From the NCBI RefSeq assembly GCF_003086695.1, contig NZ_CP025999.1, forward strand, positions 3,308,199 to 3,372,198: a stretch of DNA of 64,000 nt. Reading direction: 5' to 3'. This document shows, in pieces, positions 20,939 to 52,752 of the stretch (positions are counted from its first letter, which is position 1; the number at the start of each line of letters is the position of its first letter). The notes under the pieces were generated by a model that saw only the letters and a program-made list of their open reading frames with translations, made no database searches and was not told the origin of the DNA. A program made the position numbers and the translations under genes. This stretch comes from Stenotrophomonas sp. SAU14A_NAIMI4_8 (GTDB lineage Bacteria > Pseudomonadota > Gammaproteobacteria > Xanthomonadales > Xanthomonadaceae).

Positions 20939-21042
20939 GGCGGGGCGGTGTGGGCGTGCAGGACACGCCGTGAATCCATCCCTGGAGGCTCGTAGGCGCC
21001 ATCCATGGCGCCTGCGGTCCTGCAAGCCCACACCGCCCCACC
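20939..21042 (-). repeat. Long-hairpin element H1 (104 bp)
   Basis: Outer stem arms 20939-20964 and 21017-21042 pair at 24 of 26 positions. An inner palindrome at 20992-21015 contains CGCCATCCATGGCG. The conserved box (ACACGCCGTGAATCC) lies just inside the left arm, and CTGTC (as GACAG) sits just outside the right arm, which sets the orientation to minus relative to copies H2 and H6. It lies in the gap between the convergent tonB-like and tsaB genes. Family described under Findings. Confidence 0.85.
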
Positions 21043-21073
21043 TCTGACAGATCGCGGCGCTTCTTCTCCTCTG

Positions 21074-21123
21074 GTAGGTGTCGACCTTGGTCGACACGGT
21101 GGATCCACGCCATGCGTGGATGC
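21074..21123 (+). repeat. SMAG palindrome plus GGATCCACGC palindrome
   Basis: At 21074-21097 a GTAGGTGTCGACC palindrome (TCGACC...GGTCGA stem). It is followed at 21101-21123 by a second palindrome, GGATCCACGCCATGCGTGGA, the same stem type as the 48.3-kb pair but with GGTG where GTAG is expected. The rest of the 20846-21354 gap holds H1, H2 and no recognisable gene. Confidence 0.8.
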
Positions 21124-21205
21124 GAGCGAAGCGATCGGCTCTTGACTTTGATTTTGATTTTTCTTTTTTGATTTTCCGTGGCGGACGCGCACGGAAACTG
21201 TCAAA

Positions 21206-21309
21206 GGCCGGGCGGGTGGGTTGCGCAGGGGCGCAGGCGCCATGGATGGCGCCTACGAGCTTACATGGACGTACTTGCAGCGTCCCCTGCGCAACCCACC
21301 CGCCCGGCC
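21206..21309 (+). repeat. Long-hairpin element H2 (104 bp)
   Basis: Outer arms 21206-21231 and 21284-21309 are perfect reverse complements over 26 bp. Inner palindrome 21236-21253 (GGCGCCATGGATGGCGCC), then the conserved box GGACGTACTTGCAGCGTCC at 21267-21285, overlapping the right arm by two bases. CTGTC lies just outside the left arm. The same plan as H6 with a different stem sequence. Confidence 0.88.
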
Positions 21310-21354
21310 AAGCACGGCATTGGATTTGCGCGCCACGCCCCCGCCACGAGGGGC

Positions 21355-22068
21355 TCAGCCGTTGGCTTTCGCCTTCGCCTCGCGGGCGGCCTGCTGCTCG
21401 ACCAGGGTCAGCGCTACGTTGTCGCGCAGGTACGCCGGTTCAACGCGTTCGGCGGCAATCGCTTCGCCACGCGCGAAGGCGGGGACCGCCAGGGTCAGCA
21501 CATCGGACGCACGCGGCAATGCCGTTGCATCGAATCCGCGCAAGCCAGCTCCCAGCTGCGCCACCAGCGCCCCGTCGGCAGCAGCGAAACCACTGCCCAC
21601 ACCGTACGCCTGCAGCCCATCCGGCAGCACCACGGCAGCCGGCGCGCACACGCGCTCGGCGTCGCAGGCCACCGGCAGGCCAGCCACGCGCTCGAAGCGT
21701 GCGGCGTACACCTCGCCCATCCGTGCATCGATCACCGACAGAATCTGCGCTTCATCGGCCGGCGCGCGCAGCGCCAGCACCTGCAGCGTCGATACCGGCA
21801 GCAACGGGCGGTCCAGCGCCAACGCAATGCCCTGCGCAATGGCGATGGCCAGGCGCACACCGGTGAAGGCGCCAGGACCGCGACTGAGCGCGATGCCATC
21901 CAGCTGGCGGCGGCTGATGCCCGCCTCGGCCAGCAGTGCCTCGGCCCAGGGCAGGCTCAGCTCGGCATGCCGGCGCGGGGCGATCTCGAAGCGTTCCAGC
22001 ACCTGCCCATCCACATGCAGGGCAACGGAACAGGCTTCGGTGGCGGTTTCAAAGGCGAGCAGTTTCAT
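21355..22068 (-). CDS. tsaB: tRNA threonylcarbamoyladenosine biosynthesis protein TsaB
   Basis: 237 residues; ASKHA-fold, TsaB/YeaZ family. Seen: N-terminal LLAFETATEACSVAL, the RRHAELSLPW segment and GPGAFTGVRLAIAIAQGIA, all characteristic. TsaB is the non-catalytic partner of TsaD in forming t6A37 on ANN-decoding tRNAs; it has the fold but not the metal-binding histidines of TsaD. It starts 9 bp after the yoaA stop, so the two are likely one transcript. Downstream lies repeat H2. Confidence 0.93.
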   Translation of the reverse strand: MKLLAFETATEACSVALHVDGQVLERFEIAPRRHAELSLPWAEALLAEAGISRRQLDGIALSRGPGAFTGVRLAIAIAQGIALALDRPLLPVSTLQVLALRAPADEAQILSVIDARMGEVYAARFERVAGLPVACDAERVCAPAAVVLPDGLQAYGVGSGFAAADGALVAQLGAGLRGFDATALPRASDVLTLAVPAFARGEAIAAERVEPAYLRDNVALTLVEQQAAREAKAKANG

Positions 22069-22077
22069 CGGGTCAGG

Positions 22078-24144
22078 TCAGAACAAGGGGAACGTGGCAC
22101 CGGGGGCCGGCAGTGGGCCCGCAGCAGGCTCGGGCGCCGCTGCGCCCGGCGCCGGCGGGGCAGCGTCCTCGGCCACGGGCGTCCATTGTGGCGCAAAGAA
22201 GGCCTGGACATCGGCCAGCGCGCGGGTCTGCCGGAACGGCGGCAGCGAAGACAGGAACACCCGGCCGTAGCCCCGGTTCAGCAGGCGCGGGTCGCACAGC
22301 ACCAGCACGCCGCGATCGGTCTCGCTGCGGATCAGCCGGCCCACGCCCTGCTTCAACGCGATCACCGCCTGCGGCAACTGCTCGTCGCGGAACGGATTGC
22401 CCCCCTGGCTGCGGATCGCTTCCAGGCGGGCCTCGTACACCGGGTCATCGGGGGCGGCGAAGGGGAGCTTGTCGATCACCACCACGCTCAGCGCCTCGCC
22501 CACCACATCCACGCCTTCGCGGAAACTGGCCGAGCCCAGCAGCACGCCGTTGCCCGATTCGCGGAAGCGCTGCAGCAGGGTCGCACGCGGTGCCTCGCCC
22601 TGCACGAACAAGGGCCACGGCCCATCGCGCAGCGCTTCGGCGGCCTCGCGCAACGCGCGGTGCGACGCAAACAACAGGAACGCCCGGCCCTGCGAAGCGC
22701 GCAGCACCGGCTGCAGGGCCTGGATCAAGGCGGTACCGAAGCCCCGCGCGGCTGGATCGGGCAGGCCCTCGGGCAGGTAGCACAGCGCCTGCTCGGGCCA
22801 GTTGAACGGACTGGGCTGGACCAGCGTATGCGGATCATCCAGCCCCAGCCGCGTGGCGATATGGTCGAACCCCCCGCCCACGGTCAGCGTGGCCGAGGTG
22901 AAGATCCATGCGGCGCGGCTGCGCTCGCGGTGCTCGCGCAACGGGCCGGATACATCCATCGGCGTGCGCTGGCAGCGGAAGCCGCGCGGGGTCAGCTCGT
23001 ACCAGAGCACATCGGCCGCCGCCGGTGCATCGTTCGGGTCCGCGTCGAAATCGAGCACCGGCTCGTCCTCGCCCAGCCAGCGCGCAAGACGCGAAACCGC
23101 TTCACGTGCCCGTGCATGGCAGGCATCCAGGCCCGCCGCAGCATCGCGCAACGGCTGCAGCGTCTGCTCCAGGGCCACCAGGCAGCGCATCACGGTGTCG
23201 AAGCCGTCGCGCACCTGCGGCATCGCCAGCGCGCGCCACTGCGTGCCCCGTTGCGGCAACCCTTCCATGGCCAGGCGCAGGGCCAGCAGTGCCTGCTGCA
23301 ACTGATCGACGCCGTCCTGCAGGCTGGCCTGCGCCCCGCCCACACCGCGCGCTTCGGCCAGACAGTCGCGCCCCAGTTCCTGCCAGGGGCGCATGCCGAA
23401 GCCTTCGCCGAAGAACTGCGCAGCCAGTTCAGGCAACTGATGGGCCTCATCAATGACGAAGGCCTGCGCCCCCGGCAGCAGCTCGCCGAAACCATCCTGC
23501 TTCAGCGCAAGGTCGGCCAGCAGCAGATGATGGTTGACCACCACCACATCGGCGGCCTGCGCGCGTTGCCGCGCGCGCACCACGAAACAGTCCTCCCAGA
23601 ACGGGCAGTCGGTGCCCAGGCAGTTGTCCACGGTGGAGGTGACCATGGGCAACAGCGGTGAATCGTCGGCCAGGCCATCCAGCTCGGCGATATCGCCGAA
23701 TTCCGAGCGACCGGACCAGGCCAGGATGCGCTGGAACTGCGCGGCCTGTTCCGGGCTGGAAAAGCGCGGCTCGCCGCGCGCCTGCTGCAGGCGGTAGCGG
23801 CACAGGTAATTGGCACGCCCCTTCAGCAGCGCACTGCGCAGGCCCACGCCCAGCGCCTGGCGCACGCGCGGCAGATCGCGGTGGTAGAGCTGGTCCTGCA
23901 GCGCGCGGGTACCGGTGGAAATGATGGTGCGCAGCCCGGACAGCAGCACCGGCACCAGATAGGCGAAGGTCTTGCCGGTGCCGGTACCGGCCTCGGCCAG
24001 CAGCAGATCGCGCTGCTGCAGCGCATCGGCGATGGCCTCGGTCAGGCGCAGCTGCGCAGGGCGCGGCACGAACGCATCCAGGTGCGAGGCGAGCGCGCCG
24101 CCGTCGCTGAGGGCCTCGCGGCTGGCGTGGACAAGGTCGGACAT
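22078..24144 (-). CDS. yoaA: ATP-dependent DNA helicase YoaA (DinG/XPD-like)
   Basis: 688 residues; superfamily 2 Fe-S helicase. Walker A GTGTGKTFAYLVP near residues 50-60, Fe-S cysteines in CLGTDCPFWEDC near 175-187, DEAHQLPE near 233, and C-terminal helicase motifs FREGVDVVGEALSVV and QGVGRLIRSETDRG. YoaA unwinds DNA 5'-3' and in E. coli pairs with the polymerase III chi subunit to repair blocked replication forks. Start at ATG 24144, because the longer upstream frame runs through repeat H3 and is not family-like. Downstream tsaB follows after 9 bp. Confidence 0.92.
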   Translation of the reverse strand: MSDLVHASREALSDGGALASHLDAFVPRPAQLRLTEAIADALQQRDLLLAEAGTGTGKTFAYLVPVLLSGLRTIISTGTRALQDQLYHRDLPRVRQALGVGLRSALLKGRANYLCRYRLQQARGEPRFSSPEQAAQFQRILAWSGRSEFGDIAELDGLADDSPLLPMVTSTVDNCLGTDCPFWEDCFVVRARQRAQAADVVVVNHHLLLADLALKQDGFGELLPGAQAFVIDEAHQLPELAAQFFGEGFGMRPWQELGRDCLAEARGVGGAQASLQDGVDQLQQALLALRLAMEGLPQRGTQWRALAMPQVRDGFDTVMRCLVALEQTLQPLRDAAAGLDACHARAREAVSRLARWLGEDEPVLDFDADPNDAPAAADVLWYELTPRGFRCQRTPMDVSGPLREHRERSRAAWIFTSATLTVGGGFDHIATRLGLDDPHTLVQPSPFNWPEQALCYLPEGLPDPAARGFGTALIQALQPVLRASQGRAFLLFASHRALREAAEALRDGPWPLFVQGEAPRATLLQRFRESGNGVLLGSASFREGVDVVGEALSVVVIDKLPFAAPDDPVYEARLEAIRSQGGNPFRDEQLPQAVIALKQGVGRLIRSETDRGVLVLCDPRLLNRGYGRVFLSSLPPFRQTRALADVQAFFAPQWTPVAEDAAPPAPGAAAPEPAAGPLPAPGATFPLF

Positions 24145-24250
24145 CAGAGGGAAAGGATACCGGGCCGGGCGCTGCCCGGCACCCGTTTCAAGCCAGGGCA
24201 ACGGCAACAGCAACGACGTGCGTTCATGGCTCAGGGTTTCACCGAGGGAT

Positions 24251-24352
24251 GGCGGGGGGCTGTGGATTTGCGGGGACGCCGTAAACCCGTCCATGGGGGC
24301 TTGGTCGCCGCATCCATGCGGCTCACACCCCGCAAACCCACAGCCCCCCGCC
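24251..24352 (-). repeat. Long-hairpin element H3 (102 bp)
   Basis: Outer arms 24251-24275 and 24328-24352 pair at 24 of 25 positions. Inner palindrome 24307-24322 (GCCGCATCCATGCGGC). Conserved box GGACGCCGTAAACCC just inside the left arm at 24274-24288. Same orientation as H1 and H5. It lies 107 bp upstream of the yoaA start. Confidence 0.85.
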
Positions 24353-24387
24353 CTCGACGGGTTCCTGGTGACGGACGGACAGGCTTC

Positions 24388-24410
24388 GTAGAGTCAAGCT
24401 TGCTCGACTG
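24388..24410 (+). repeat. SMAG palindrome with one stem mismatch
   Basis: GTAGAGTCAAGCTTGCTCGA: same subtype as the 1.8-kb cluster, with A in place of G in the left half of the stem, so the palindrome is imperfect and probably older. Confidence 0.8.
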
Positions 24411-24443
24411 GATCCAGTAGCGGTGTGAGTAACGGAACAAGAA

Positions 24444-24484
24444 GGGGTCGGATCCGTTTTCCTGCGGAAAACGGATCCGACCCC
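24444..24484. repeat. 41-bp perfect palindrome (GGGGTCGGATCC)
   Basis: A 19-bp stem (GGGGTCGGATCCGTTTTCC) closes on a TGC loop. A second copy of the same family is at 40362-40402 with GAGCC in place of GATCC and the matching change on the other arm. It has no GTAG end and is distinct from SMAG elements. A T-tract is not directly adjacent, so a terminator role is not supported for this copy. Confidence 0.85.
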
Positions 24485-24624
24485 CTGGCGAGTGCGCGCA
24501 GCGCGCGACCCGCTTTTGATTCTGATTTTGTTCTTGCCTGCGGCCCGCGCAATGTGTGGCGGGCCGGGTGGGTGGGGCGTGCAGGACCGCAGGCGCCATG
24601 GATGGCGCCTACGAGCCCCCATGG

Positions 24625-24853
24625 TGAAGTGACCCCCGGGAGTTGGACACCTAATCCGACCCCGAGGTTTGCATGAATAGATATGAGGTTTGTTTCAAAT
24701 TGCAGGTCGCCGAAGAGGCCTGTAACACCTTCCGGTACTACAACGAGAATCGTATCCGCTTGAAACTAAAGGGCTTGAGCCCCGTACAGTACCGGGAGCA
24801 GGCCGCGCTGGCCGCCTGATCCCCCACCTGTCCAACTTCAGGGGGTCACTTCA
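24625..24853 (+). mobile_element. 229-bp internally deleted IS3-family element (MITE-like)
   Basis: The ends are inverted repeats beginning TGAAGTGACCCC and sharing AGTTGGACA after a short offset; a 3-bp TGG at 24622-24624 and 24854-24856 is a plausible target duplication, as IS3-family elements make 3-4 bp. Inside is a 48-codon frame joining the first ~15 residues of an OrfA-like protein to the last ~30 residues of an OrfB transposase. The element cannot transpose alone but retains both ends, so it could be moved by a full-length relative elsewhere. The insertion lies in the loop side of H4. Confidence 0.88.
24673..24819 (+). pseudogene. IS3 transposase OrfA/OrfB fusion remnant, 48 aa
   Basis: Starts MNRYEVCFKLQVAEEA, typical of the OrfA N terminus, and passes directly into YYNENRIRLKLKGLSPVQYR, the conserved C-terminal end of IS3-family OrfB (the Asn-Arg-Ile and Leu-Ser-Pro-x-x-Tyr-Arg elements). 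Everything between, including the helix-turn-helix body and the DDE catalytic core, has been deleted. The frame has stayed open across the junction. It is not expected to have transposase activity. Confidence 0.85.
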
Positions 24854-24962
24854 TGGATGGGTTTACGGCGTGTCCTGCACGCCCCACCCACCCGGCCCAT
24901 CACGACCCACCATCGGTGAGCGCGCGCCGCAGAGGGGGCAGCGCCCGATGGAGGGGAATGAC

Positions 24963-25496
24963 TCAGTACCGCTTGATCCCCGGCACGGTGCAGCCTTCCA
25001 GCTGCGCATGCGCCGATACCGCGTTTTCCTTCTCGCCACGCGCCAGCCGTGCCTGTTCGATGGTCGCCCAGTGGCGCCGGCACAGCGGCCCGGTCTTCGA
25101 ACCCAGGTCCACCGCCTTGCGCGCGAACGCCTCAGCCTCGCCCCACTGGCCCTGCAGCAACGCGATCTCGGCACGTTCCTGCAGCACCGACGGGTCGCCG
25201 GCCACGATCTGCAGCGCTTGGTCCAGGCTGCCGGCCGCAGCGGCCAGATCATTGCCCTGGCGCTGTGCCAACGCCGCCTGGCGCAGGTCTTCCACCTGCG
25301 AATCACGCAGCGGCTGCACCGACAGTTCCTTGTCGTCCGGGCCCGCAGCCGCATCAACGGCGGCCAGGCGCTGTGCCGGGGTGGTGGTGTCCACCGGCTT
25401 GACCACCTGCGGCGCACTGCTCATGCAGGCCGCCAGGGCAAGGCTGAGGGTGGCCACGGCCACCGGCGCATACAGGGTTCGAAGGTTCATCGGCAT
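24963..25496 (-). CDS. Small TPR-like lipoprotein
   Basis: About 177 residues. N-terminal signal with lipobox LALAAC (Cys near 22-24), so it is probably lipid-anchored. Residues ~70-150 carry two TPR-like helical pairs (LRQAALAQRQGNDLAAAAGS, LQERAEIALLQGQWGEAEAF). The start ATG 25496 overlaps the mrcB stop in TGATG; ATG 25490 is almost equally good. Directly following mrcB, it may be an outer-membrane partner of PBP1b, comparable in position and anchoring to LpoB of E. coli, but there is no clear sequence match to LpoB; that role is inference only. Confidence 0.75.
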   Translation of the reverse strand: MPMNLRTLYAPVAVATLSLALAACMSSAPQVVKPVDTTTPAQRLAAVDAAAGPDDKELSVQPLRDSQVEDLRQAALAQRQGNDLAAAAGSLDQALQIVAGDPSVLQERAEIALLQGQWGEAEAFARKAVDLGSKTGPLCRRHWATIEQARLARGEKENAVSAHAQLEGCTVPGIKRY

Positions 25497-27934
25497 CACC
25501 GGCTGGGGGAAGGGGTCGTGGCGGCCGGGGCAGCGGCCGGTTCGGCGGGCGGATCGGGCTTGCGGTCCAGGCCGAACCAGCTGCGCCAGCCGCCACCTTC
25601 GCTTTCGCCGCCCTGCTCTTCGGGCACGCTGGCCGGCGCACAGGGCGCGTAAGCCGGGGCATAGCCCACCACGAACGGGAAACGACGCGCGCCGGGGCAG
25701 CCTTCATCGGTGCTGTTGGTGCCGGTGGCGGCCACCGGCTGCCAGTCCAGACCCTTGTTGCTGACCTTCAGCGGGGCACTGGGCAGGCGCTGGAAGATGC
25801 CCGACCACACCCGCATGGCGCCGGTGGCACCGTACAGGCCGGCCTGCTCGTTCTTGTCGTTGCCCATCCAGATCACCGCCAGGTGGTCACCGGTGTAACC
25901 GGCATACCAGCTGTCGCGGCCATCGTTGGTGGTGCCGGTCTTGCCGGCCGGCTGCAGGCGGCCCAGGCCATCGGCATTCAGGCGCTGCGCGGTGCCGCTG
26001 GCCACCACCTGCTGCAGGCCGATGCTGATCAGGTTGGCGGCAATCGAATCGCCTTCCTGCGCCGGCGCCGGGGTCTTGTCATAGCGCTTGAGCAGCTTGC
26101 CCTGTGGGTCCAGCACGCCACGCACGGCGTGCAGCGGCTGGATCTCGCCACCCGAAGCCAGGAACTGGTACAGCTGGGCCATGGCGTAGGGGCTCTGGTC
26201 GGTCGAGCCCAGGATGACCGCCGGGTTGGCCTCGGCCTTCAGGCCGGCCAGCACGTGGATCAGCTGGGTCACCCGCTCCGGCCCCACCTGCATGCCCACG
26301 CGCACCGTGGCCTGGTTGTAGGAATGGGCCAGCGCGTCGATCAGGCGCACCGTGCCATGGCTGCGGTTGTCAGCGTTGCCGGGGCTCCAGTTGCGGCCAC
26401 GGCCCAGCTGCACCGTCACCGGTGAATCATCCACCCAGGTCGCCAGCGAATAGCGGTCCGGCTGGGCCAGCGCCAGCAGATAGACGAACGGCTTCAGCAA
26501 CGAACCCACCGGACGCTGTGCCTCGATGGCACGGTTGAAGCCGACCTCGGACACCTCGCGGCTGCCGATCACGGCCAGCACGTCGCCGTTGTGCACGTCG
26601 GTCAGCACCATGCCGGCCTGCAGTTCCGGGCGGCGCTTGCTTTCCAGCGACTTGATGGTGCGCGTCACTGCGCCCTCGGCATAGGCCTGGGCCGACGGTG
26701 ACATGCCGGTCATCACGCTCAGCCCGGCGCCCTGCAGGGCGGCTTCGGGGTAATCGTGGCCCAGCTGGCGGCGCACCAGATCCACGTACGCCGGGAAGCG
26801 GTTGGCCGCCACCAGGCCGGGCGTCTTCGGCACGCCCAGCGGCGCCTTCAGCGCACGCTGGTACTCGGCATCGTCGATCAGCGCCGCCTCGTGCAGCTTG
26901 CCCAGCACGAAGTTGCGGCGGTCCAGCGCGCGTTCCGGGTTGCGACGCGGGTCGTAGTACGACGGCCCCTTCACCAGACCGATCAGCAGCGCGACCTGTT
27001 CGGTTTCCAGCGACGACAGATCGCGGCCGAACCAGAATTCCGCGCCCGAGGACATGCCGTGGATCGCCTGGCTGCCGCGCTGGCCCAGGTACACCTGGTT
27101 CAGGTAGGCCTCGAAGATGGTGCGCTTGTCGTAGCGCGCTTCCATGATGAGCGCGTACAGCACTTCATTGAACTTGCGGGTGACGGTCTGTTCCTTGCCG
27201 ATGCCCAGCAGGCCGCTGCGGGCCAGCTGCTGGGTAAGCGTGGAAGCACCCTGGCGGCTCTGCCCGCCGGAACGGATCGTGACCCACACGGCGCGGGCAA
27301 TGCCGGAAAGATCGATGCCGTGGTGGCGGTTGAAGTCCTTGTCCTCCACCGCCTGCAGGCCGGTCACCAGCAGGTCGGGCGCTTCATCCATGCGCACCAG
27401 GCGCCGCTCTTCCTGCTTCTGCCCGTACAGGGTGGCGATTCGCGCCGGATCCAGGCGCGCGGCCTTCAGTGCCTTGCGGCTGTCGGCGTCGCGCAGGGAG
27501 GCGATGCTGCCGCCGGACAGGGTCAGTTCCACCCGGCGCGGCGCCACCCGGCCATCCACATCGTTGTAGCCGCGGCTGGAAATGGTGAAGCGACCGCCCT
27601 GCACCGCGTAGGTGGCCGGCTCCTTGCCCTGGCCGTCATCGCGGTAGGCCGAGGCCGCCAGTTCGGTCTTCAGGGTGGCCGCGTCCATCGCCTTGCCGGG
27701 CACCACGACCAGCGGGCGCGCATAGACCCGCGTCGGAATCTGCCAGCGCAGTTCACCGAAACGCTGGGTCACCTGTTGGTTCAGGTACAGCGTGTACGGA
27801 ATCAGGAAGCCCAGGCCCAGCGCGAAGGCGGCCATGCTCCAGGTGATCAGGCGGCTGCGCCAGGAGGGGCCGTCACCGGTCGGGGTGTCGTCGTCGAGAT
27901 CGTCGATGTCGTCGGAATCGTAGCGTCGGGGCAC
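25496..27934 (-). CDS. mrcB: Penicillin-binding protein 1B (bifunctional)
   Basis: 812 residues. Short acidic cytoplasmic tail (SDDIDDLDDDTPTGDG), one membrane helix (~30-50), UB2H-like region, GT51 glycosyltransferase with the catalytic Glu in VEDKDFNRHHG near 196 and the ARSGLLGIGKEQTVTRKFNE segment, then the transpeptidase with SLLKPF (active Ser near 478) and KTGTTNDGRDSW near 663. It polymerises lipid II and cross-links peptidoglycan in the periplasm. A Pro- and Ala-rich tail follows. It is divergent from the glycosyltransferase gene by 95 bp, and the downstream lipoprotein overlaps its stop. Confidence 0.96.
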   Translation of the reverse strand: MPRRYDSDDIDDLDDDTPTGDGPSWRSRLITWSMAAFALGLGFLIPYTLYLNQQVTQRFGELRWQIPTRVYARPLVVVPGKAMDAATLKTELAASAYRDDGQGKEPATYAVQGGRFTISSRGYNDVDGRVAPRRVELTLSGGSIASLRDADSRKALKAARLDPARIATLYGQKQEERRLVRMDEAPDLLVTGLQAVEDKDFNRHHGIDLSGIARAVWVTIRSGGQSRQGASTLTQQLARSGLLGIGKEQTVTRKFNEVLYALIMEARYDKRTIFEAYLNQVYLGQRGSQAIHGMSSGAEFWFGRDLSSLETEQVALLIGLVKGPSYYDPRRNPERALDRRNFVLGKLHEAALIDDAEYQRALKAPLGVPKTPGLVAANRFPAYVDLVRRQLGHDYPEAALQGAGLSVMTGMSPSAQAYAEGAVTRTIKSLESKRRPELQAGMVLTDVHNGDVLAVIGSREVSEVGFNRAIEAQRPVGSLLKPFVYLLALAQPDRYSLATWVDDSPVTVQLGRGRNWSPGNADNRSHGTVRLIDALAHSYNQATVRVGMQVGPERVTQLIHVLAGLKAEANPAVILGSTDQSPYAMAQLYQFLASGGEIQPLHAVRGVLDPQGKLLKRYDKTPAPAQEGDSIAANLISIGLQQVVASGTAQRLNADGLGRLQPAGKTGTTNDGRDSWYAGYTGDHLAVIWMGNDKNEQAGLYGATGAMRVWSGIFQRLPSAPLKVSNKGLDWQPVAATGTNSTDEGCPGARRFPFVVGYAPAYAPCAPASVPEEQGGESEGGGWRSWFGLDRKPDPPAEPAAAPAATTPSPSR

Positions 27935-28029
27935 GGGAATGCGACAATGTAGGGTCTGGCGAGTCTACCCCAGCCGCTGTGGCTGGCGAATTCCCGCCGA
28001 TTCCCTGCTTAAGCTGGAGTTGTTACCGG

Positions 28030-31691: not shown

Positions 31692-31721
31692 GCGTGCAGG
31701 GTAGCCGGGGCAGCGTGAAGC

Positions 31722-33878: not shown

Positions 33879-34010
33879 AGCATCGAACGTTGGACAATGA
33901 GTCCACTACACTAGCGCCAGCACCGTTCAGGAACAATCGCCGCGCTGCGCATGACCGGGCATGAACACATGCCGTTACACTCGCGGTCATCCAAAACGAG
34001 AGTCCCGCCC

Positions 34011-34550
34011 ATGGTTTCCCGCCCTCTTCCCCGTGCACGGCTGCATCTGTTGGCCAGCGCTGCGCTGCTGCTGGCCCTGTCCACCCCTGCGCTGGCCCAG
34101 CGCGTGGTGGAAGGCGACCTGCAGCAGCAGATGAGCCCGGCCGAGTTCCAGGCCGCCGGCCTGGACAAGCTGTCCGCCACCGAACTGGCGTCGCTGAACC
34201 GCTGGCTGCAGGGCAAGGTGGAGGCGGCCACCACCCAGGCCGTGGCCGCCGTGCGCGAAGAGGCCCGCGAGGAAGGCCGCCAGGAAGTGATCGTGAAGAA
34301 CCGTGGGTTCTTCGATTTCGGCAGCAAGGAGCCGATCAACGCGATCCTGCAGGGCGAGTTCCGTGGCTTCGGCAAGGGCCGGGTCTACGCGCTGGACAAC
34401 GGCCAGCAGTGGGAACAGATCGATGCCAGCAGCGTGAGCGGCGTGCGCAAGCAGAACCCGAACGTCAGCATCAGCCCCGGCATGATGGGCGTGTGGTACA
34501 TGAAGGTCGAAGGCGTGAACACCCAGCCCAAGGTGCGCCGTACCAAGTAA
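34011..34550 (+). CDS. Periplasmic protein of unknown function
   Basis: 179 residues. Clear signal peptide ending LSTPALAQ (cleavage near 30), so exported. Residues 34-90 are helical and charged (QQQMSPAEFQAAGLDKLS, then EEAREEGRQE), resembling a short coiled coil. The C-terminal half (FFDFGSKEPINAILQGEFRG, RVYALDNGQQWEQID) is a small beta-rich domain that recurs in Xanthomonadaceae exported proteins; I know no function. It lies between the divergent relA start and the convergent hrpA stop, so it is transcribed alone. A longer frame upstream starts at 33951 but lacks a signal. Confidence 0.8.
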   Translation: MVSRPLPRARLHLLASAALLLALSTPALAQRVVEGDLQQQMSPAEFQAAGLDKLSATELASLNRWLQGKVEAATTQAVAAVREEAREEGRQEVIVKNRGFFDFGSKEPINAILQGEFRGFGKGRVYALDNGQQWEQIDASSVSGVRKQNPNVSISPGMMGVWYMKVEGVNTQPKVRRTK

Positions 34551-34583
34551 CGGCGGCGCCGGGCCTGGCACGGCGCTGTCCGA

Positions 34584-37500
34584 TTACAGCTGGCGCAATG
34601 CGGTTACCCGCTGCGCCAGCTTCTTGGCTGAAATGCCGGTGCGTGCGCCCAGCTCCTGGGCGAACAGGGAAACACGCAGCTCTTCCAGGTCCCAGCGCAG
34701 GGCCTGCCATTGCGGGCGCTCGCGCAGTCCCTGCTCCTCGCCGGTGCGCAACGCATCCAGGAACGGATGCAATTCCAGCATGCGCGCCTGGTCGCGCGGC
34801 GGATCGCGCTTGGCGCGTTCGGTGCGCAGAATCATCGCCTTCAGGTAACGCGGGTACTGGGCCAGTGCATCGGCCGGCGTATCGCGCAGGAAGCCGGGGT
34901 GGATCAGGCCCACCAGCTGCGCTTCCATGTCATCCAGGTTGCCGCGCGCCCAGCCCATCAACGGCGCTTCCAGCAGCGGCTTCAGTTCTCCCACCAGGCC
35001 CAGGATGGTCTCGGCCAGTTTCAGCCGCTGCATAGCCTCGCCGAACAGCGCCTTGGCCACCTGCTCGCGTCGCTGCTCGAACGCGCCGGCATCGCGGATG
35101 TCGCCCAGACCGTCGGCCAACACCGCGTTCATCGCCGCATCCACCAGATCGCCACGCAGGCGTTCCTGCGATTCAATGGCCGCGTACAGCAGGCCGGTCT
35201 TGGCGCCCACCGGCAACTGCTTGCGGGCCTGCTTCACCTTGTCCGACAGGGCGATTTCCAGCAAGCGGCGCACGCCCAGCGGATGCGCTTCCTCGGCCTG
35301 CTGGCGGTCGGCGAAGATGCGCAGCGCCACGCTGTCCCCTTCATCCAGCAGCGCCGGGTAGGCCGGCACGCCGGCTTCACCGGGCACCTGCAAGGGAATC
35401 GGCGTGGACGGGAAGCTGCGCAGGCCGTCGGCCGCCATCTCGCGGCCGGCGCGTGCAGCAAAGGCATCGCCGGCACGGCTGCCGAACTTCGCGCGCAGCG
35501 CGTCCAGATCGCGCGAACTGGCCAGCACCTTGCCGTGCTCATCGCGCAGCCGCAGGTTCATGTGCAGGTGCGGCTCGATCGAGGTGGGCTCGAAATCGGT
35601 GGCCGCCACCTGCGCGCCGGTGGCACGCGACAGGAAGCGCGCCAGCTCGCCGGTGATCGCGTCGGCGCTGGGTTGTGGGAAGGCCTCGAAGAATGCCCGG
35701 GCGAAATCCGGTGCGGGCACGTAGTTGCGGCGCATGGCCTTGGGCAGGCTGCGGATCAGCGCCGCGGCCTTGTCGGCCACGAAGCCCGGCGCCAGCCAGC
35801 CCAACTGCACCGGATCCAGCGCGTTCAACAGGTGCAGCGGCACGTCCAGGGTTACGCCGTCGTCGTCGCTGCCCGGCTCGAAGCGGTAGTGCAGCGGCAG
35901 CCGCGCCTGGCCCAGCGCCAGATACTTGGGGTAGCGCTCCTGCTCGCTGCCTTCGCCGGGCAACAGGTCGACCAGCGACCAGTGCAGGCCCTTGCGCTGT
36001 TCCGGCGGCAGGGTCTTCCACCACGCATCCAGGCCCGATGCCGAATGGATCTGCGGCGGTACGCGGTCCAGGTACCAGCGCGCCTGCCAATCCTCGTCGG
36101 CCACGATACCGGCGCGGCGCAGCTTGGCCTCTTCCTCGCGGGCCTGTTCCAGCACCTTGTGGTTGTCGGCCACGAAACTGGCGCGGGTGTTGATTTCGCC
36201 GGTCACCAGCGCCTGGCGCACGAAGATGTCATGCGCCTCGCCCGGTTCGATGCGGCCGTAGTGCACCGGCTTCTTCGGGGCCAGCACCAGGCCGAACAGG
36301 CTGATCTGTTCCGAGGCCAGCACCTGGCCCTGCGCGCGCGACCAGTGCGGGTCGAAGTGCTTGCGCAGCAGCAGGTGCGGCAGTTCGGCAATCACCCAGT
36401 CCGGCTCGATGGCCGCCAGAGTCATGCCCCAGACCTTCTGCGTGTCCAGCAGGTTGGCCGCCAGCAGCCACGGCGGCGGGCGCTTGGACAGCGCCGAACC
36501 CGGGAACGGCAGGAAGCGGCGCTGGCGCGGCGCCTGGAAATCGCCCTTGTCGGTGCGGTGGCCCACCTGCGTGGGCAGGCCGGCGATCAACGCACGGTGC
36601 AGGGTCTGGTAGGCGGCCGCGCGCACACGCTCGCTGAAGCCACCCCCGGCAGGCACTTCGTCCTTCTGCGCACGCGCCGCCACCGGTGCCGGCACGGCCT
36701 CGGTCTTGCCTTCGCGGGCCAGGCGCGCAGCGCGGTGCAACTGGCCACGGGTGGCCTTCACCGCGGCCGCGTCGTCACGCGCTGGGGCCGGCGCACTGCT
36801 GCCGGCCAGCAGCGGTGCCATCGCCGCATCGCTGGCTTCTTCCTTCCAGCCCAGCTCTTCGCACAGCAAGCGCAGCTGGCGGTGCAGCTCGCGCCATTCG
36901 CGCATGCGCAGGAAGCCCAGGAAATGGCGGCCGCACCAGTCGCGCAGTTTCGATTGGGTCAGGTCTTCGTGGGCCGTGCGATAGCCATCCCACAGGCGCA
37001 GCACGCCCACGAGTTCAGAGCGCCCATCGGCGAACTGCGCATGCGCACTGTCAGCCGCACCACGCGCTTCGGGCGGACGTTCGCGCGGGTCCTGGATGCC
37101 CAGGAACGAGGCGATCACCAGCATCGGCCGCAGGCAACCTGCCGCCTGCGCGGCCACCAGCATGCGCGCCAGCTTCACGTCCACCGGCAGGCGTGCCATC
37201 TGCTTGCCGATGGTGGTCATGCGCCGCTCGGCATCGATCGCGCCCAGTTCGGTCAGCTGCTGCCAACCATCGGCCACCGCGCGCTCGTCCGGCGCTTCCA
37301 GGAACGGGAAGTCCTCGATGCGGCCCAGGCCCAGCTGCAGCATGCGCAGGATCACCCCGGCCAGGCTGGAGCGGCGGATTTCCGGATCGGTGAACTCCGG
37401 CCGCGCCTGGAAATCGGCTTCGGCATACAGGCGGTAGCAGATGCCCTCGGCAATACGGCCGCAGCGGCCCTTGCGCTGGTTGGCACTGGCCTGCGAGATC

Positions 37501-38666
37501 GGCTCGATATGCAGGCGGTCCAGCTTGTTGCGCGGGCTGTAGCGCTTGACGCGGGCGAAGCCCGGATCGACCACGTAGCGGATGCGCGGCACCGTCAGCG
37601 AGGTCTCGGCCACGTTGGTGGCCAGCACGATGCGCCGGTTCGGGCCCGGGTTGAACACCCGGTCCTGGTCCTGGTTGGACAGCCGCGCGTACAGCGGCAG
37701 CACCTCGGTATTGCGGTACTTGCGGCGCTCCAGCGACTGGTGCGCATCGCGGATCTCGCGTTCACCGGGCAGGAAGATCAGCACGTCGCCCCGCGCATCC
37801 AGGCGGGTGATTTCATCGATGGCCGACACGATGGCATCGTTCACCGTGCGCTCGCCCTCCTGTTCGCCCTCGCCTTCCAGCGCGCGGTAGCGCACTTCCA
37901 CCGGGAAGGTGCGCCCTTCCACGCTGATCACCGGCGCATTGTCGAAATGCTGGGCGAAGCGCTCGGTATCGATGGTGGCCGAGGTGACGATCAGCTTCAG
38001 GTCCGGGCGCTTGCGCAGCAGCTGCTTCAGGTAGCCCAGCAGGAAGTCGATGTTGAGGCTGCGTTCGTGCGCCTCGTCCACGATGATCGTGTCGTAGTTC
38101 GACAGCCAGCGGTCGCTGGCGATCTCCGCCAGCAGGATGCCGTCGGTCATGAACTTGATGCGGCTGTCGTCGCTGACCTTGTCGTTGAAACGCACCTGGT
38201 AGCCGACCAGCTGGCCCAGTTCGCTGTGCAGTTCCTGCGCCACGCGGCTGGCCACCGCACGTGCAGCAATCCGTCGCGGCTGGGTGCAGCCGATCATGCC
38301 GGCCTGGCCACGGCCCGCAGCCAGGCACAGCTTCGGCAGCTGGGTGGTCTTGCCCGAACCGGTTTCGCCGGCGATCACCACCACCTGGTGGTCGCGGATC
38401 AGGCCGATGATCGCCTCGGCTTCACGCGCAATCGGCAGCAGCGGGTCCAGAGTAATGGATGGCTGCTGCTGCGCCCGCTGCTGGCGGCGCTGCACCGATG
38501 CCTGCAGGGCCTGCTCGAACGTGGCGGCCAGGGCCGCATCTTCGGGCTTGGCCTGGCAACGCGACAGCATGCCCAGCAGACGGCCCCGGTCGCGGCTCAT
38601 GGCGCCATTGATGGCGGCGCGCTGTTGGCGCAGGCGGGACGGCATATTTTTATTGATAGCGTTCAT
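34584..38666 (-). CDS. hrpA: ATP-dependent RNA helicase HrpA
   Basis: 1,360 residues, slightly longer than E. coli HrpA (1,300). DEAH/RHA helicase core: GETGSGKTTQLPK near 97, DEAHERSLN near 197, ATNVAETSLTV and QRKGRCGR in the second RecA domain, followed by helicase-associated, OB and the long HrpA-specific C-terminal region. HrpA removes stalled ribosomes in E. coli. ATG 38666 is chosen; a TTG is directly upstream. The minus-strand gene is divergent from dps with 86 bp between starts. The plus-strand frame antisense to it is only a shadow of GC bias. Confidence 0.95.
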   Translation of the reverse strand: MNAINKNMPSRLRQQRAAINGAMSRDRGRLLGMLSRCQAKPEDAALAATFEQALQASVQRRQQRAQQQPSITLDPLLPIAREAEAIIGLIRDHQVVVIAGETGSGKTTQLPKLCLAAGRGQAGMIGCTQPRRIAARAVASRVAQELHSELGQLVGYQVRFNDKVSDDSRIKFMTDGILLAEIASDRWLSNYDTIIVDEAHERSLNIDFLLGYLKQLLRKRPDLKLIVTSATIDTERFAQHFDNAPVISVEGRTFPVEVRYRALEGEGEQEGERTVNDAIVSAIDEITRLDARGDVLIFLPGEREIRDAHQSLERRKYRNTEVLPLYARLSNQDQDRVFNPGPNRRIVLATNVAETSLTVPRIRYVVDPGFARVKRYSPRNKLDRLHIEPISQASANQRKGRCGRIAEGICYRLYAEADFQARPEFTDPEIRRSSLAGVILRMLQLGLGRIEDFPFLEAPDERAVADGWQQLTELGAIDAERRMTTIGKQMARLPVDVKLARMLVAAQAAGCLRPMLVIASFLGIQDPRERPPEARGAADSAHAQFADGRSELVGVLRLWDGYRTAHEDLTQSKLRDWCGRHFLGFLRMREWRELHRQLRLLCEELGWKEEASDAAMAPLLAGSSAPAPARDDAAAVKATRGQLHRAARLAREGKTEAVPAPVAARAQKDEVPAGGGFSERVRAAAYQTLHRALIAGLPTQVGHRTDKGDFQAPRQRRFLPFPGSALSKRPPPWLLAANLLDTQKVWGMTLAAIEPDWVIAELPHLLLRKHFDPHWSRAQGQVLASEQISLFGLVLAPKKPVHYGRIEPGEAHDIFVRQALVTGEINTRASFVADNHKVLEQAREEEAKLRRAGIVADEDWQARWYLDRVPPQIHSASGLDAWWKTLPPEQRKGLHWSLVDLLPGEGSEQERYPKYLALGQARLPLHYRFEPGSDDDGVTLDVPLHLLNALDPVQLGWLAPGFVADKAAALIRSLPKAMRRNYVPAPDFARAFFEAFPQPSADAITGELARFLSRATGAQVAATDFEPTSIEPHLHMNLRLRDEHGKVLASSRDLDALRAKFGSRAGDAFAARAGREMAADGLRSFPSTPIPLQVPGEAGVPAYPALLDEGDSVALRIFADRQQAEEAHPLGVRRLLEIALSDKVKQARKQLPVGAKTGLLYAAIESQERLRGDLVDAAMNAVLADGLGDIRDAGAFEQRREQVAKALFGEAMQRLKLAETILGLVGELKPLLEAPLMGWARGNLDDMEAQLVGLIHPGFLRDTPADALAQYPRYLKAMILRTERAKRDPPRDQARMLELHPFLDALRTGEEQGLRERPQWQALRWDLEELRVSLFAQELGARTGISAKKLAQRVTALRQL

Positions 38667-38752
38667 CAATCGGTTCGTTCAAAACTTTGAAAGCGACCAG
38701 TCATCACGACTGATTTACTGTGAAGGCCAACGATTCCACAAGGAGGAACCCC

Positions 38753-39301
38753 ATGGCGAAGACCAAGAGCACGACCAAGCCCAAGACCGGTAAGCAGAAG
38801 CTTGCGGCGGCGGCGCCGTCGGCACCCAACATCGATATCGGGATCACCCAGGGCAACCGCAAGAAGATCGCCGACGGTCTGTCGCGGTTCCAGGCCGATG
38901 CGTTCACGCTCTACCTGAAGACCCACAACTTCCACTGGAACGTGACCGGGTCGATGTTCAATTCGCTGCACACCATGTTCGAGACCCAGTACACCGAGCA
39001 GTGGGCAGCCCTGGACGATGTGGCCGAGCGCATCCGCGCCCTGGGGTTCAATGCCCCGGGCTCCTACCGGGAATTCGCTGCGCTGACCTCGATTGCCGAG
39101 GAGCCGGGCCTGACCGACAGCGCGGACTGGCGGGAAATGGTACGCCAGTTGGTGGTCGCCAACGAAGCGGTGTGCCGTACGGCACGTGAAGTGCTGGACG
39201 TGGCCGACGATGCCGACGACGCCCCGACCGAGGATCTGATGACCCAGCGCCTGCAGACCCACGAGAAGTACGCCTGGATGCTGCGCTCCCTCCTCCAGTA
39301 A
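38753..39301 (+). CDS. dps: DNA-binding ferritin-like protein Dps
   Basis: 182 residues. A Lys-rich tail (MAKTKSTTKPKTGKQK) is the DNA-binding extension of E. coli-type Dps. The ferritin-like body carries the intersubunit ferroxidase site: THNFHWNVTG (His) and FETQYTEQWAALDDVAERIR (Asp, Glu). Dps stores iron, uses H2O2 and protects DNA in stationary phase. AAGGAGG ends 6 bp before the ATG, a strong ribosome-binding site. In gamma-proteobacteria OxyR often controls dps; no OxyR site was recognisable in the 86 bp to hrpA. It is followed by a 1.4-kb repeat field. Confidence 0.95.
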   Translation: MAKTKSTTKPKTGKQKLAAAAPSAPNIDIGITQGNRKKIADGLSRFQADAFTLYLKTHNFHWNVTGSMFNSLHTMFETQYTEQWAALDDVAERIRALGFNAPGSYREFAALTSIAEEPGLTDSADWREMVRQLVVANEAVCRTAREVLDVADDADDAPTEDLMTQRLQTHEKYAWMLRSLLQ

Positions 39302-39391
39302 GGGTTTGGGGGGGTTTCGGCAGGGCTTGCAGCCCTGCACCTGCTTCAAGCCGAAGCCAGGGCAACAGCAGAAGCTGGTTTGCTGAGGGTT

Positions 39392-39567
39392 GGCGGGGTG
39401 GGTCCGGTTTAGGGGGACGTCGTAAACCCCCAGTCCGGCCCAGCCGCTGGCGGCTGTGCGTTCGGGCGCTTGCGAAGCAGTGCTTCGCAAGCAAAGCGCC
39501 CTCACCCATGGGGGCTTAGCCGCGCCATCCATGGCGCGGATACCCCCTCAACCGGACCCACCCCGCC
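39392..39567 (-). repeat. Long-hairpin element H5, enlarged (176 bp)
   Basis: Outer arms 39392-39416 and 39543-39567 pair at 24 of 25 positions. Conserved box GGACGTCGTAAACCC at 39415-39429 and inner palindrome CGCGCCATCCATGGCGCG at 39521-39538. It is about 74 bp longer than its relatives because of extra DNA at ~39430-39510 that includes another hairpin (GGGCGCTTGCGAAG...CTTCGCAAGC, 39464-39502). Its right half is part of the first unit of the tandem array that follows. Confidence 0.82.
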
Positions 39568-40335
39568 TTCGACAGACCACCGCGATCTGCCGGAACGGCC
39601 CAATGCTCTGGCAGGTGTCGACCTTGGTCGACACAGTAGAGCCACGCCACGCGTGGATGATTCATTCGATGTCTGACAGATGTGTCGACCAAGGTCGACA
39701 CCTACCCACAGCCGCCATCCATGGCGCGGATACCCCCTCAACCGGACCCACCCCGCCTTCGACAGACCTCCGCGATCTGCCGGAACGGCCCAATGCTCTG
39801 GCAGGTGTCGACCTTGGTCGACACAGTAGAGCCACGCCACGCGTGGATGATTCATTCGATGTCTGACAGATGTGTCGACCAAGGTCGACACCTACCCACA
39901 GCCGCCATCCATGGCGCGGATACCCCCTCAACCGGACCCACCCCGCCTTCGACAGACCTCCGCGATCTGCCGGAACGGCCCAATGCTCTGGCAGGTGTCG
40001 ACCTTGGTCGACACAGTAGAGCCACGCCACGCGTGGATGATTCATTCGATGTCTGACAGATGTGTCGACCAAGGTCGACACCTACCCACAGCCGCCATCC
40101 ATGGCGCGGATACCCCCTCAACCGGACCCACCCCGCCTTCGACAGACCTCCGCGATCTGCCGGAACGGCCCAATGCTCTGGCAGGTGTCGACCTTGGTCG
40201 ACACAGTAGAGCCACGCCACGCGTGGATGATTCATTCGATGTCTGACAGATGTGTCGACCAAGGTCGACACCTACCCACAGCCGCCATCCATGGCGCGGA
40301 TACCCCCTCAACCGGACCCACCCCGCCTTCGACAG
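39524..40335 (+). repeat. 190-bp tandem repeat, four full units plus partial
   Basis: Units start at 39524, 39714, 39904 and 40094, each exactly 190 bp; a fifth partial unit runs 40284-40335. Unit 1 differs at one base (GACCACCGCG for GACCTCCGCG); the others appear identical. Each unit contains the right half of H5, then two SMAG palindromes of the TCGACC subtype in opposite orientations (for unit 1 at about 39615-39640 and 39683-39706) separated by a CCACGCCACGCGTGG palindrome. Near identity implies recent amplification or gene conversion. No start codon with a plausible ribosome site and no coding bias were found, so the array is non-coding. Confidence 0.93.
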
Positions 40336-40361
40336 TTTCCCGCCATCTGTCGGCAAAGCTT

Positions 40362-40402
40362 GGGGTCGGAGCCGTTTTCCGCAGGAAAACGGCTCCGACC
40401 CC
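40362..40402. repeat. 41-bp perfect palindrome (GGGGTCGGAGCC), terminator-like
   Basis: Second member of the family at 24444-24484, with a compensated change in the stem (GAGCC/GGCTC against GATCC/GGATC). Here ATTTTGTT follows, so the plus-strand copy could act as a rho-independent terminator. It is followed at about 40435-40455 by another TCGACC-type SMAG in minus orientation. Confidence 0.8.
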
Positions 40403-40477
40403 ATTTTGTTCATTCGATATCTGAAAGATGTGTCGACCAAGGTCGACACCTACCCACAGCCGCGTGAACCTGTCAGA

Positions 40478-40579
40478 GGCGGGGCGGTGTCGGATTGCGG
40501 GGTGTCCGCGGCATGGATGCCGCGGCCAAGCCTACACGGACGTACTTGCGGCGTCCCCGCAATCCGACACCGCCCCGCC
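40478..40579 (+). repeat. Long-hairpin element H6 (102 bp)
   Basis: Outer arms 40478-40502 and 40555-40579 are perfect reverse complements over 25 bp. Inner palindrome 40506-40525 (CCGCGGCATGGATGCCGCGG) and conserved box GGACGTACTTGCGGCGTCC at 40538-40556. CTGTCAGAGG overlaps the outside of the left arm. This is the cleanest copy. It ends 107 bp before the recQ start; the remaining space holds no other feature I can name. Confidence 0.9.
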
Positions 40580-52113: not shown

Positions 52114-52752
52114 CCCGCCCTCCCCGGCGTTCGGGGCATGGTAGCAACGCGCGAGCGCCGCGGATTTCCAGTGCTTCTCTTTGTGATTTGGGTCACAGGC
52201 CGGGCCCTGTGAATGCCGCTGTCGCGTTTGGCGAGCGCTCAATGTCGCATCTGCACCGAACTTCGGCGTGGGGCGCAGGCACGCGTTCCGTGTTGATGGT
52301 GGAAGTCGCTCACAGCAGACGCAGGCGACTTCGCGCTTTGCGACAGGTTTGGGCGTGTTCCGCCAGACGTTGGAGCAGATACGTCCCGTGCTGTCGTGTG
52401 CTGCGCCGCCTGCAGTGGTGACAATGCAGGTGCGCCTTGGGGTTGGAAGGCTGTTTCAGACAATTCTGATTGAAACCCAAGCGCAGGCGTAACCAACATG
52501 CAGCGCCACCGACAACGGGTGGCACCGGGCCTGCAAGCCCGGAATGACAATCACGCTGTTGTTTACGCTCGCCCGTCGGCACCGTCTGTGGATGGTGCCG
52601 GCGGGTGATCCGTCGGCCTTCATGGTGGGCGGTGCGTGGGGGTTTTCGAACCCGCCGGTTACTAGCGTGATGTCATTCCGGCTTGCAGCCACGCACCGCC
52701 CGCCACCCGCCCTGCGCGGTGGCACGCCTGCGCTTTTGCCGAGGACGCCGAC
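52114..52752. other. Gene-poor region with a nested inverted-repeat element
   Basis: No reading frame here has a plausible ribosome site with family similarity. The one structured part is an inverted repeat: 52528-52557 pairs with 52664-52690 (GGCTTGCAAGCC-like arms, AGCGTGAT/ATCACGCT ends), and a second overlapping pair, 52624-52639 with 52689-52707 (GGTGCGTGG/CCACGCACC). A small hairpin GGCACC...GGTGCC lies between at 52579-52600. The remaining ~400 bp show nothing I can name. Confidence 0.6.
52528..52707. repeat. Nested, mutually exclusive inverted repeats
   Basis: Two long-range stems interlock (arms given in the region entry), so the sequence could switch between two folds. GGGTTTTCGAACCC-like GGTTTTCGAACC at 52641-52652 lies in the shared loop. 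Function unknown. Possibly a degraded mobile element end. Confidence 0.5.

Follow-up and report, generated by a model that had tools for sequence, protein, structure and literature searches.

The window analyzed here, a stretch of 64,000 nucleotides from Stenotrophomonas sp. SAU14A_NAIMI4_8 (contig NZ_CP025999.1, positions 3,308,199 to 3,372,198), contains six copies, H1 to H6, of a structured intergenic element, arranged in three convergent pairs (H1/H2, H3/H4, and H5/H6). Throughout, orientation A denotes the strand used to describe the element and strand B its opposite. H1 (20939..21042, plus strand, 104 bp) is in orientation A, and its partner H2 (21206..21309) has orientation A on the minus strand, with strand B being the plus strand. 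H3 (24251..24352, plus strand, 102 bp) is partnered with H4 (24561..24898, orientation A on the minus strand), and H5 (39392..39567, plus strand, 176 bp) with H6 (40478..40579, orientation A on the minus strand, 102 bp). All six copies of the original prediction were recovered at these coordinates. A covariance model, R1, whose training copies included H1, H2, H3, and H6, scores five of them at E values of 2.1e-13 or lower: H1, 113.2 bits (E 6.5e-21); H2, 120 bits (E 2.7e-22); H3, 96.5 bits (E 1.7e-17); H5, 76.4 bits (E 2.1e-13); and H6, 106.9 bits (E 1.3e-19). H4, which is split by an insertion, is detected as only two weak pieces (E 0.0005 and 0.6).

The element folds into a three-way junction (37 copies anchored on P2), with an outer stem P1 of 26 bp and two hairpins, P2 and P3. 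In orientation A, the order is P1 (26 bp), 2 nt, P2, T, P3, and P1'; P2 consists of GCY, a 5-nt bulge, NNN, the loop RTCCNT, NNN, and RGC, and P3 is a 10-bp stem with the loop ATCCAT. By structural alignment, P2 of H1 occupies 20967..20989 (loop 20978-20983) and P3 occupies 20991..21016 (loop 21001-21006), both on the plus strand; the strand-B loops of H2, read from the plus strand, are ATGGAT (21242-21247) and ATGGAC (21265-21270). The P2 triplets vary as complementary pairs (TCC/GGA, CCC/GGG, and TAC/GTA were found); hence the conserved 'box' that the original prediction placed beside one arm exists but is itself a covarying hairpin, namely, P2 with its 5-nt bulge. The CTGTC motif outside the other arm is present as well and belongs to a longer conserved flank (CTGTC/GACAG). 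Folded on their own, copies form strong structures on either strand (z from -6.3 to -12.0 for 11 strands).

Two of the window copies depart from this layout. H5 is 176 bp long because extra hairpins extend its P2 loop, and long copies resembling it were found at other places as well. In H4, the P2 loop is split by an insertion that had been given as 232 bp and resolves into a 229-bp IS3-like remnant (24625..24853, ends TGAAGTGACCCCC and GGGGGTCACTTCA) plus a 3-bp repeat, with TGG on each side. This insert is a deletion remnant, with 13-bp inverted ends and a short piece resembling a transposase end.

The element is highly amplified in its own genome. A BLAST search with H1 listed 50 matches at about 41 distinct places, whereas R1, with 119 matches among 150 scored candidates, some of them the reverse strand of a listed copy, identified 112 places, or 118 with six extended or interrupted copies added. 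Thus, the proposal of a genome-wide family is borne out, with about 110 copies. Many of the copies are paired. Among neighbors no more than 1.5 kb apart in the 118-copy list, 42 of 44 are convergent, one is divergent, and one is same-strand; the divergent case arises where one pair occurs twice in tandem, and the same-strand two score equally. In the 112-place list, there are 37 convergent, no divergent, and 2 same-strand cases, with a median gap of 177 bp, and a scan for inverted repeats in 20 regions and the window also showed many copies with an inverted partner a few hundred bases away. In the pairs that were read, the partners carry different P1 types.

Beyond this genome, R1 matches 22 of 41 genomes, 19 of 25 within the genus (the unmatched ones being G004, G007, G015, G017, G023, and G024 in our numbering) and 3 of 16 others, with, on closer look, 39 matches in G030, 3 in G038, and 46 in G040. 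A model of the core, R2, matches 70 of 369 gammaproteobacterial genomes, representing 62 of 271 genera; because 12 candidates were scored per genome, copy numbers from this search are lower bounds. Of 398 genomes sampled across the phylum, 29 match, all of them from the same class or nearer. Another 28 genomes of 24 families, examined at one locus each, have a well-conserved core, and their outer arms differ, are mostly paired over 23-33 bp, and track the base composition of the host; this host-like composition suggests that P1 could be a copy of the target.

The stems covary. Of the alignments used, A2-A4, A6, and A7 were fitted to a model, which biases them toward the structure, whereas A1 and A5 were not. 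In 35 own-genome copies (34 distinct), 96.5% of the cells pair, compared to 76.7% in shuffles, 30 of the 42 pairs are changed on both sides, and the covariation score is 0.480 versus 0.139 in shuffles, none of 500 of which reaches the observed value; all slid controls are far lower (0.086 at most). In 74 copies from two genomes (G030 and G040) of another family (f7), 94.5% versus 66.1% of the cells pair, 35 of 42 pairs changed on both sides, and the score is 0.637 versus 0.130; for 46 copies from three families, the respective values are 23 of 29 pairs and 0.644 versus 0.160. The number of further pair types exceeds that in shuffles in the own genome (3 of 500 shuffles) but not in f7 (160 of 500) or in the three-family set (414 of 500). 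The covariation claimed in the original prediction is accordingly upheld; the associated claim that the fold and not the sequence is conserved holds for P1 and the hairpin stems and fails for the two hairpin loops, which are nearly invariant in sequence.

The mismatches that do occur in P1 are not symmetrical between the strands. The rationale of this comparison is that a strand that is kept folded tolerates G-U pairs but loses A-C mispairs. In the 74 f7 copies, mismatches read as G-U on B and on A in 47 versus 8 events (p 8e-8) and, in 29 copies from 28 other genomes, in 19 versus 4 (p 0.0026); in the own genome, the ratio is 16 versus 9, which is not significant alone (p 0.23). Pooled, with events and raw counts mixed, there are 82 mismatches with G-U on B against 21 with G-U on A (p about 1e-9); a count of 38 versus 15, which may include reversed rows, is superseded by these numbers. 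We therefore favor strand B, opposite to the usual sense strand of 3' untranslated regions (UTRs), as the one kept foldable. Deamination bias on the coding strand would be expected to have the opposite effect where A is the sense strand. Three copies in G038 have adjacent P3 mismatches that read G-A/A-G on B. A protein-recognized structure, one of the forms suggested originally, is still the best reading, although the mismatches point to one folded strand rather than to a symmetrical cruciform.

Read on strand B, both loops match the consensus of the ligands of the RNA-binding regulator RsmA/CsrA. In f7, all 72 six-nt loops of P2 read A-N-G-G-A, with the second letter free (6 A, 7 C, 34 G, 25 T), and two further loops miss one letter; all 74 P3 loops are of this type. 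In the own genome, 104 of 108 six-nt P2 loops fit A-N-G-G-A-N, with three further loops extended, as do all 111 P3 loops, and, in the other genomes, 28 of 29 loops fit for each hairpin. These counts were made by alignment column and replace an earlier P2 count by regular expression on few copies. In the three-family set, the loop is closed by a C-G pair in 45 of 46 P2 and 46 of 46 P3 hairpins. The motif CANGGANG occurs at least twice on B in 104 of 111 own, 71 of 74 f7, and 27 of 29 other copies; on A, it occurs at all in 8 own, no f7, and 2 other copies. In the 201 copies with exactly two sites, 19-22 nt separate the GGAs. For comparison, systematic evolution of ligands by exponential enrichment (SELEX) yielded the CsrA consensus RUACARGGAUGU, with mostly six-nt loops and the AC and GU paired, and CsrA can bridge two sites over 10-63 nt, which works best when they are more than 18 nt apart (PMC7652899). 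An alternative CsrA/Rsm consensus is A/UCANGGANGU/A, and mutation of CATGGATG showed its importance for the Rsm control of cfcR (PMC6849547). The exact SELEX site is present in 15 of 74 f7 and 3 of 29 other copies, and none of 5136 control windows contains it with one mismatch or fewer. Thus, GGA in hairpin loops, the published consensus, and a spacing suitable for one dimer all occur together in what would be a predicted RsmA/CsrA ligand.

Binding of RsmA/CsrA is the best single explanation because it covers the loop letters, the free second position, the closing pairs, the spacing, and the strand. We propose that the element is a putative dispersed RsmA-binding RNA element, a reading drawn from sequence comparison to which we assign slightly less than an even chance. 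Under this proposal, strand B would fold into a 26-bp handle bearing two short hairpins with A-N-G-G-A-N hexaloops closed by C-G, and the two loops would be placed as in a ligand that offers two sites to one RsmA/CsrA dimer. RsmA/CsrA would be bound by those copies whose B strand is transcribed, and the roughly 110 copies might act jointly as a dispersed sponge, or each might be the local RsmA-binding part of its transcript. A read-through RNA over a convergent pair would contain one A and one B copy, and the predicted A:B duplex could hide the loops and serve as a switch; this idea is a speculation based on the H1-H2 stretch, for which the predicted best fold pairs H1 with H2. The full proposal, which we hold more tentatively, is that of a class-wide, genome-amplified family of RsmA/CsrA-binding elements, with up to about 100 two-site modules per genome that would be foldable on one strand and would titrate the regulator or recruit it locally, with convergent pairs as A:B RNA switches, perhaps including the missing antagonist in Xanthomonadales.

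Several observations weigh against this proposal. The exact SELEX site is absent from all 111 own copies, of which the best on B are two mismatches off. P3 is a long, stable hairpin, in contrast to most SELEX hairpins, which have four or fewer contiguous pairs (PMC7652899), and loop extensions abolish the hexaloop in some copies. In 22 of the 34 distinct own copies, the commonest type in this genome, strand A has U-G as the third P3 pair, and, in two of five copies folded (H6 and L075), the predicted optimum for strand B lacks P2. A reported Yersinia small RNA (sRNA), Ysr224, matches strand A. CsrA is encoded in all 22 genomes that carry the element, but 17 of 19 genomes lacking the element encode CsrA, too. 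The loop letters, closing pairs, and spacing may also be due to shared descent, the copies being non-independent.

The gene context is the main difficulty. Judged by our own uncurated codon-score gene calls, no copy in the own genome (0 of 111) lies within a called open reading frame (ORF), and there is no preference in orientation: the upstream gene is sense to A for 61 of 111 copies and antisense for 50. The sense copies mostly lie 57-92 nt past the stop codon, and the downstream gene is convergent for 63 of 111. In f7/f4, the upstream gene is sense for 26 of 32 callable copies and antisense for 6 (one of 33 is uncallable), and 16 of the 26 sense copies begin 14-21 nt past the stop. In the other genomes, where a cruder caller flags 6 of 29 copies as inside ORFs, the ratio is 20 of 27 sense to 7 antisense, with two uncallable. 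Outside the genus, the neighboring message more often carries A while B is kept foldable. Convergent genes or antisense promoters could give rise to strand B, as could the far member of a pair, or else B could act as single-stranded DNA.

This last option leads to the alternative that survives best, although we consider it doubtful: a mobile element that folds as single-stranded DNA on strand B, with a nuclease or recombinase recognizing both loops and copying or moving the element. The analogies are the presumed action of RAYTs on repetitive extragenic palindromic (REP) sequences and the action of integrases on the folded bottom strand of attC, and the convergent pairs would be REPIN-like dimers. 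The integron attC site, marked by conserved core boxes and a cassette setting, enters the comparison solely through the folding of its bottom strand. The lack of a bias toward B being transcribed fits such a role, as does the variable presence within the genus (19 of 25 genomes positive); near-identical copies occur at different places in the genome, the element is present or absent at one orthologous gap, and the related Yersinia repeat YPAL is described as mobile, with internal inverted repeats and with targets near dyad symmetry that are duplicated over 3-26 bp (PMC2229807). Against mobility, there is no leading or lagging strand bias (if base 1 is taken as the origin, 14 of 33 single copies lie on the leading strand), and the stems seem to stay paired while changing in place, which would not be needed in a spent insertion. 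A role as the terminal repeat of a tyrosine (Y1) transposase, the first lead from the literature, was rejected: in 44 examined of 76 Y1 loci, there is no convincing element, and the three weak matches reach 20.4 bits at most (E 0.084). At L029, a different self-complementary repeat, similar to the GGGGTCGGA hairpins described below, flanks the Y1 gene.

Change in place was followed at orthologous gaps. The comparison suggested in the original prediction yielded presence and absence at one gap but no clean empty site: the gaps of G030 and G040, and the relatives generally, are too diverged for junctions to be read. The orthologous f7 copies in these two genomes have very different P1 arms, and the adjoining coding sequence is largely 80-88% identical; at the orthologous pair L099/L084, the P1 arms still align, so that compensatory change fits as well as target copying. 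The gap beside tsaB, a gene of the window whose product is 92-93% identical to Stenotrophomonas maltophilia complex proteins, has a match in 22 of 24 genomes of the genus; 80 further tsaB loci were gathered, of which 15 were searched. Seven of the 22 loci (L181 and L183-L188) contain strong R1 copies (at least 84.9 bits), with a truncated copy in L180 and a weak one in L195; a reading of the gaps, which covered loci other than L183, L192, L193, and L199, added a copy with two loop extensions in L182. Eight of ten more distant tsaB loci have gaps of 20-179 bp, and the other two of 386 and 969 bp. In 5 of 10 other loci, the copy on the tsaB side differs from ours at five positions on both P1 arms, with P2 and P3 also changed, in an alignment in which three rows are out of register or have broken arms; these changes on both arms fit conversion between copies as well as compensatory change. 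Across the L180-L188 gaps, loops are extended by several hairpins in two different ways, one affecting the loop of P2 and the other that of P3; L182 and L184 have both. One tsaB-bearing record, L292, is titled Bacillus subtilis, but its TsaB is 78% identical to that of the window, and it is probably mislabeled or contaminated.

Less probable is a strand-A element of 3'-UTRs, that is, a stable junction that stabilizes mRNA or sets the stop of decay or termination, in the manner of the RNAs of REP, ERIC, and NEMIS. The f7/f4 copies past the stop codons of upstream genes fit this function, and so does the avoidance of ORFs; at the L079/L243 site, a different hairpin stands in the genome that lacks the left copy. 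However, the mismatches disrupt A more than B (82 versus 21), the invariant loops would be unexplained, and the evenness of neighbor-gene orientation in the own genome argues against a simple 3'-UTR use. A terminator was considered and set aside: there is no T-run behind the stem in the copies that were read, no dedicated scan having been run. Finally, the covariation might be mostly mutational, produced by template switching in replication and conversion between copies that correct palindromes, as the nearly perfect, often unique, and fast-changing P1 and the recurrence of P1, P2, and P3 types in differing combinations would allow, but this account appears very improbable, as it predicts no strand preference and leaves the loops, bulge, and C-G closing pairs, conserved in many families, without an explanation.

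Other features of the window and of related loci can be noted briefly. A tandem repeat of about 190 bp (39700-40340) brings with it multiple copies of REP-like palindromes and of the 3' part of H5; within it, four partial copies of this part (39714..40327, plus strand), consisting of a P3 remnant and the right P1 arm, were read from the sequence at about 39714-39757, 39904-39947, 40094-40137, and 40284-40327. Self-complementary GGGGTCGGA hairpins lie between the paired copies at 24448-24484 and 40364-40402. The 52618-52710 segment matches the Rfam C4 antisense RNA (64.3 bits) and is possibly part of a P4-like prophage. Elsewhere, L366 (genome G581) carries six same-strand copies at 1032-2246, arrayed in tandem at about 227 bp with a REP-like GTAGGAGCGGCTTC palindrome in every unit, and, near a copy in G038, a group I intron is matched in Rfam (L078, 2563-2816; 67.5 bits).

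Among known RNAs, the likeness to the CsrB/RsmZ type and to the Xanthomonas sponge RsmU lies in the GGA motifs in the apical loops of several hairpins. These are, however, dedicated or 3'-UTR-derived sRNAs (RsmU: PMC7694677), whereas here we deal with a dispersed repeat and a putative RNA, and changing the GGA motifs of RsmU did not eliminate its effect (PMC7694677). In PMC3937308, which predates the report of RsmU, RsmB-type sponges are noted as not identified in Xanthomonas and the RsmA antagonist as unknown; if RsmA binds the element, this repeat DNA would join the Csr/Rsm network and become a candidate for that antagonist. If RsmA does not bind, the strand-resolved model would still be of help in identifying the protein by which YPAL-type elements are used or moved.

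The element shares with REP/SMAG sequences, REPINs, and TIRYT the intergenic palindromes, inverted dimers, and same spacers (PMC3733652, PMC3686654, PMC2817692). Unlike REP/SMAG, it is a three-way junction and not a single hairpin beside a conserved GTAG/GTGG tag; GTAG occurs in one P3 type only, and, no such tag being conserved in the alignments, the distinction from GTAG palindromes drawn in the original prediction stands. In S. maltophilia, two families of terminal inverted repeats (TIRs) flank Y1 transposase genes (PMC3733652); identity with the self-complementary '1152' TIR of strain K279a was compared only indirectly. Compared to miniature inverted-repeat transposable elements, the element has long inverted arms, but the Y1 loci yielded no parent gene, and clean empty sites were not found.

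No Rfam family matches the elements at its gathering threshold. Low-scoring microRNA matches in a permissive search look like generic long hairpins and were dismissed. The closest entry is RF02770, Ysr224 (Yersinia sRNA 224), which is among the 20 most prevalent annotated sRNAs (PMC9029176): strand A of L078 scores 29.2 bits and H2 28 bits, but these matches (23.4-29.2 bits) are far below the gathering score of 70, and Ysr224 is modeled on strand A.

The original prediction recognized no described family, and this must be revised: the core of the element is homologous to the Yersinia palindromic sequence YPAL, also known as RU-2. YPAL was reportedly described by De Gregorio in 2006. It was treated in Delihas 2007 as well, and has been counted in Yersinia species, with 3 in E. 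coli (PMC2847712). In the strand-B sense, 44 of 53 columns are identical between YPAL (sequence from a table in PMC2759123) and H6; YPAL has CAAGGATG and CATGGATG in its two hairpins, and the same hairpins fold. Like YPAL, the Stenotrophomonas element is intergenic, stably folded, and present in many copies (about 110), as befits a dispersed repeat. The differences are equally clear: YPAL is about 167-168 bp long with internal inverted repeats, whereas the copies here are 102-106 bp, with P1 reaching the ends, and so have neither the length nor the internal repeats of YPAL, although conserved flanks do exist in the own genome. Furthermore, YPAL is described for Yersinia and Erwinia carotovora, whereas the present element forms convergent pairs and occurs in many genera of the gammaproteobacteria. 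A search with the Yersinia core matched 5 of 5426 E. coli genomes and 15 of 72,556 plasmid records, with no match in phage records. Four of the matched records (L278-L281; three plasmids and one E. coli chromosome) share one locus, in which the copy lies 3' of a gene for an iron-containing alcohol dehydrogenase and has IS26 or ISKpn26 nearby, and so provide no polymorphic site. Among the best matches listed for open-licence papers, there was neither a link between YPAL and CsrA nor a report of the family in Stenotrophomonas. Thus, a repeat known mainly from Yersinia is now found across gammaproteobacteria with a conserved junction, a strand preference, and consensus loops. The strand preference of the stem mismatches and the match of the B loops to the CsrA/RsmA consensus are new, and, as judged by sequence, the family is related to YPAL but different in length and layout, that is, a new, class-wide variant.

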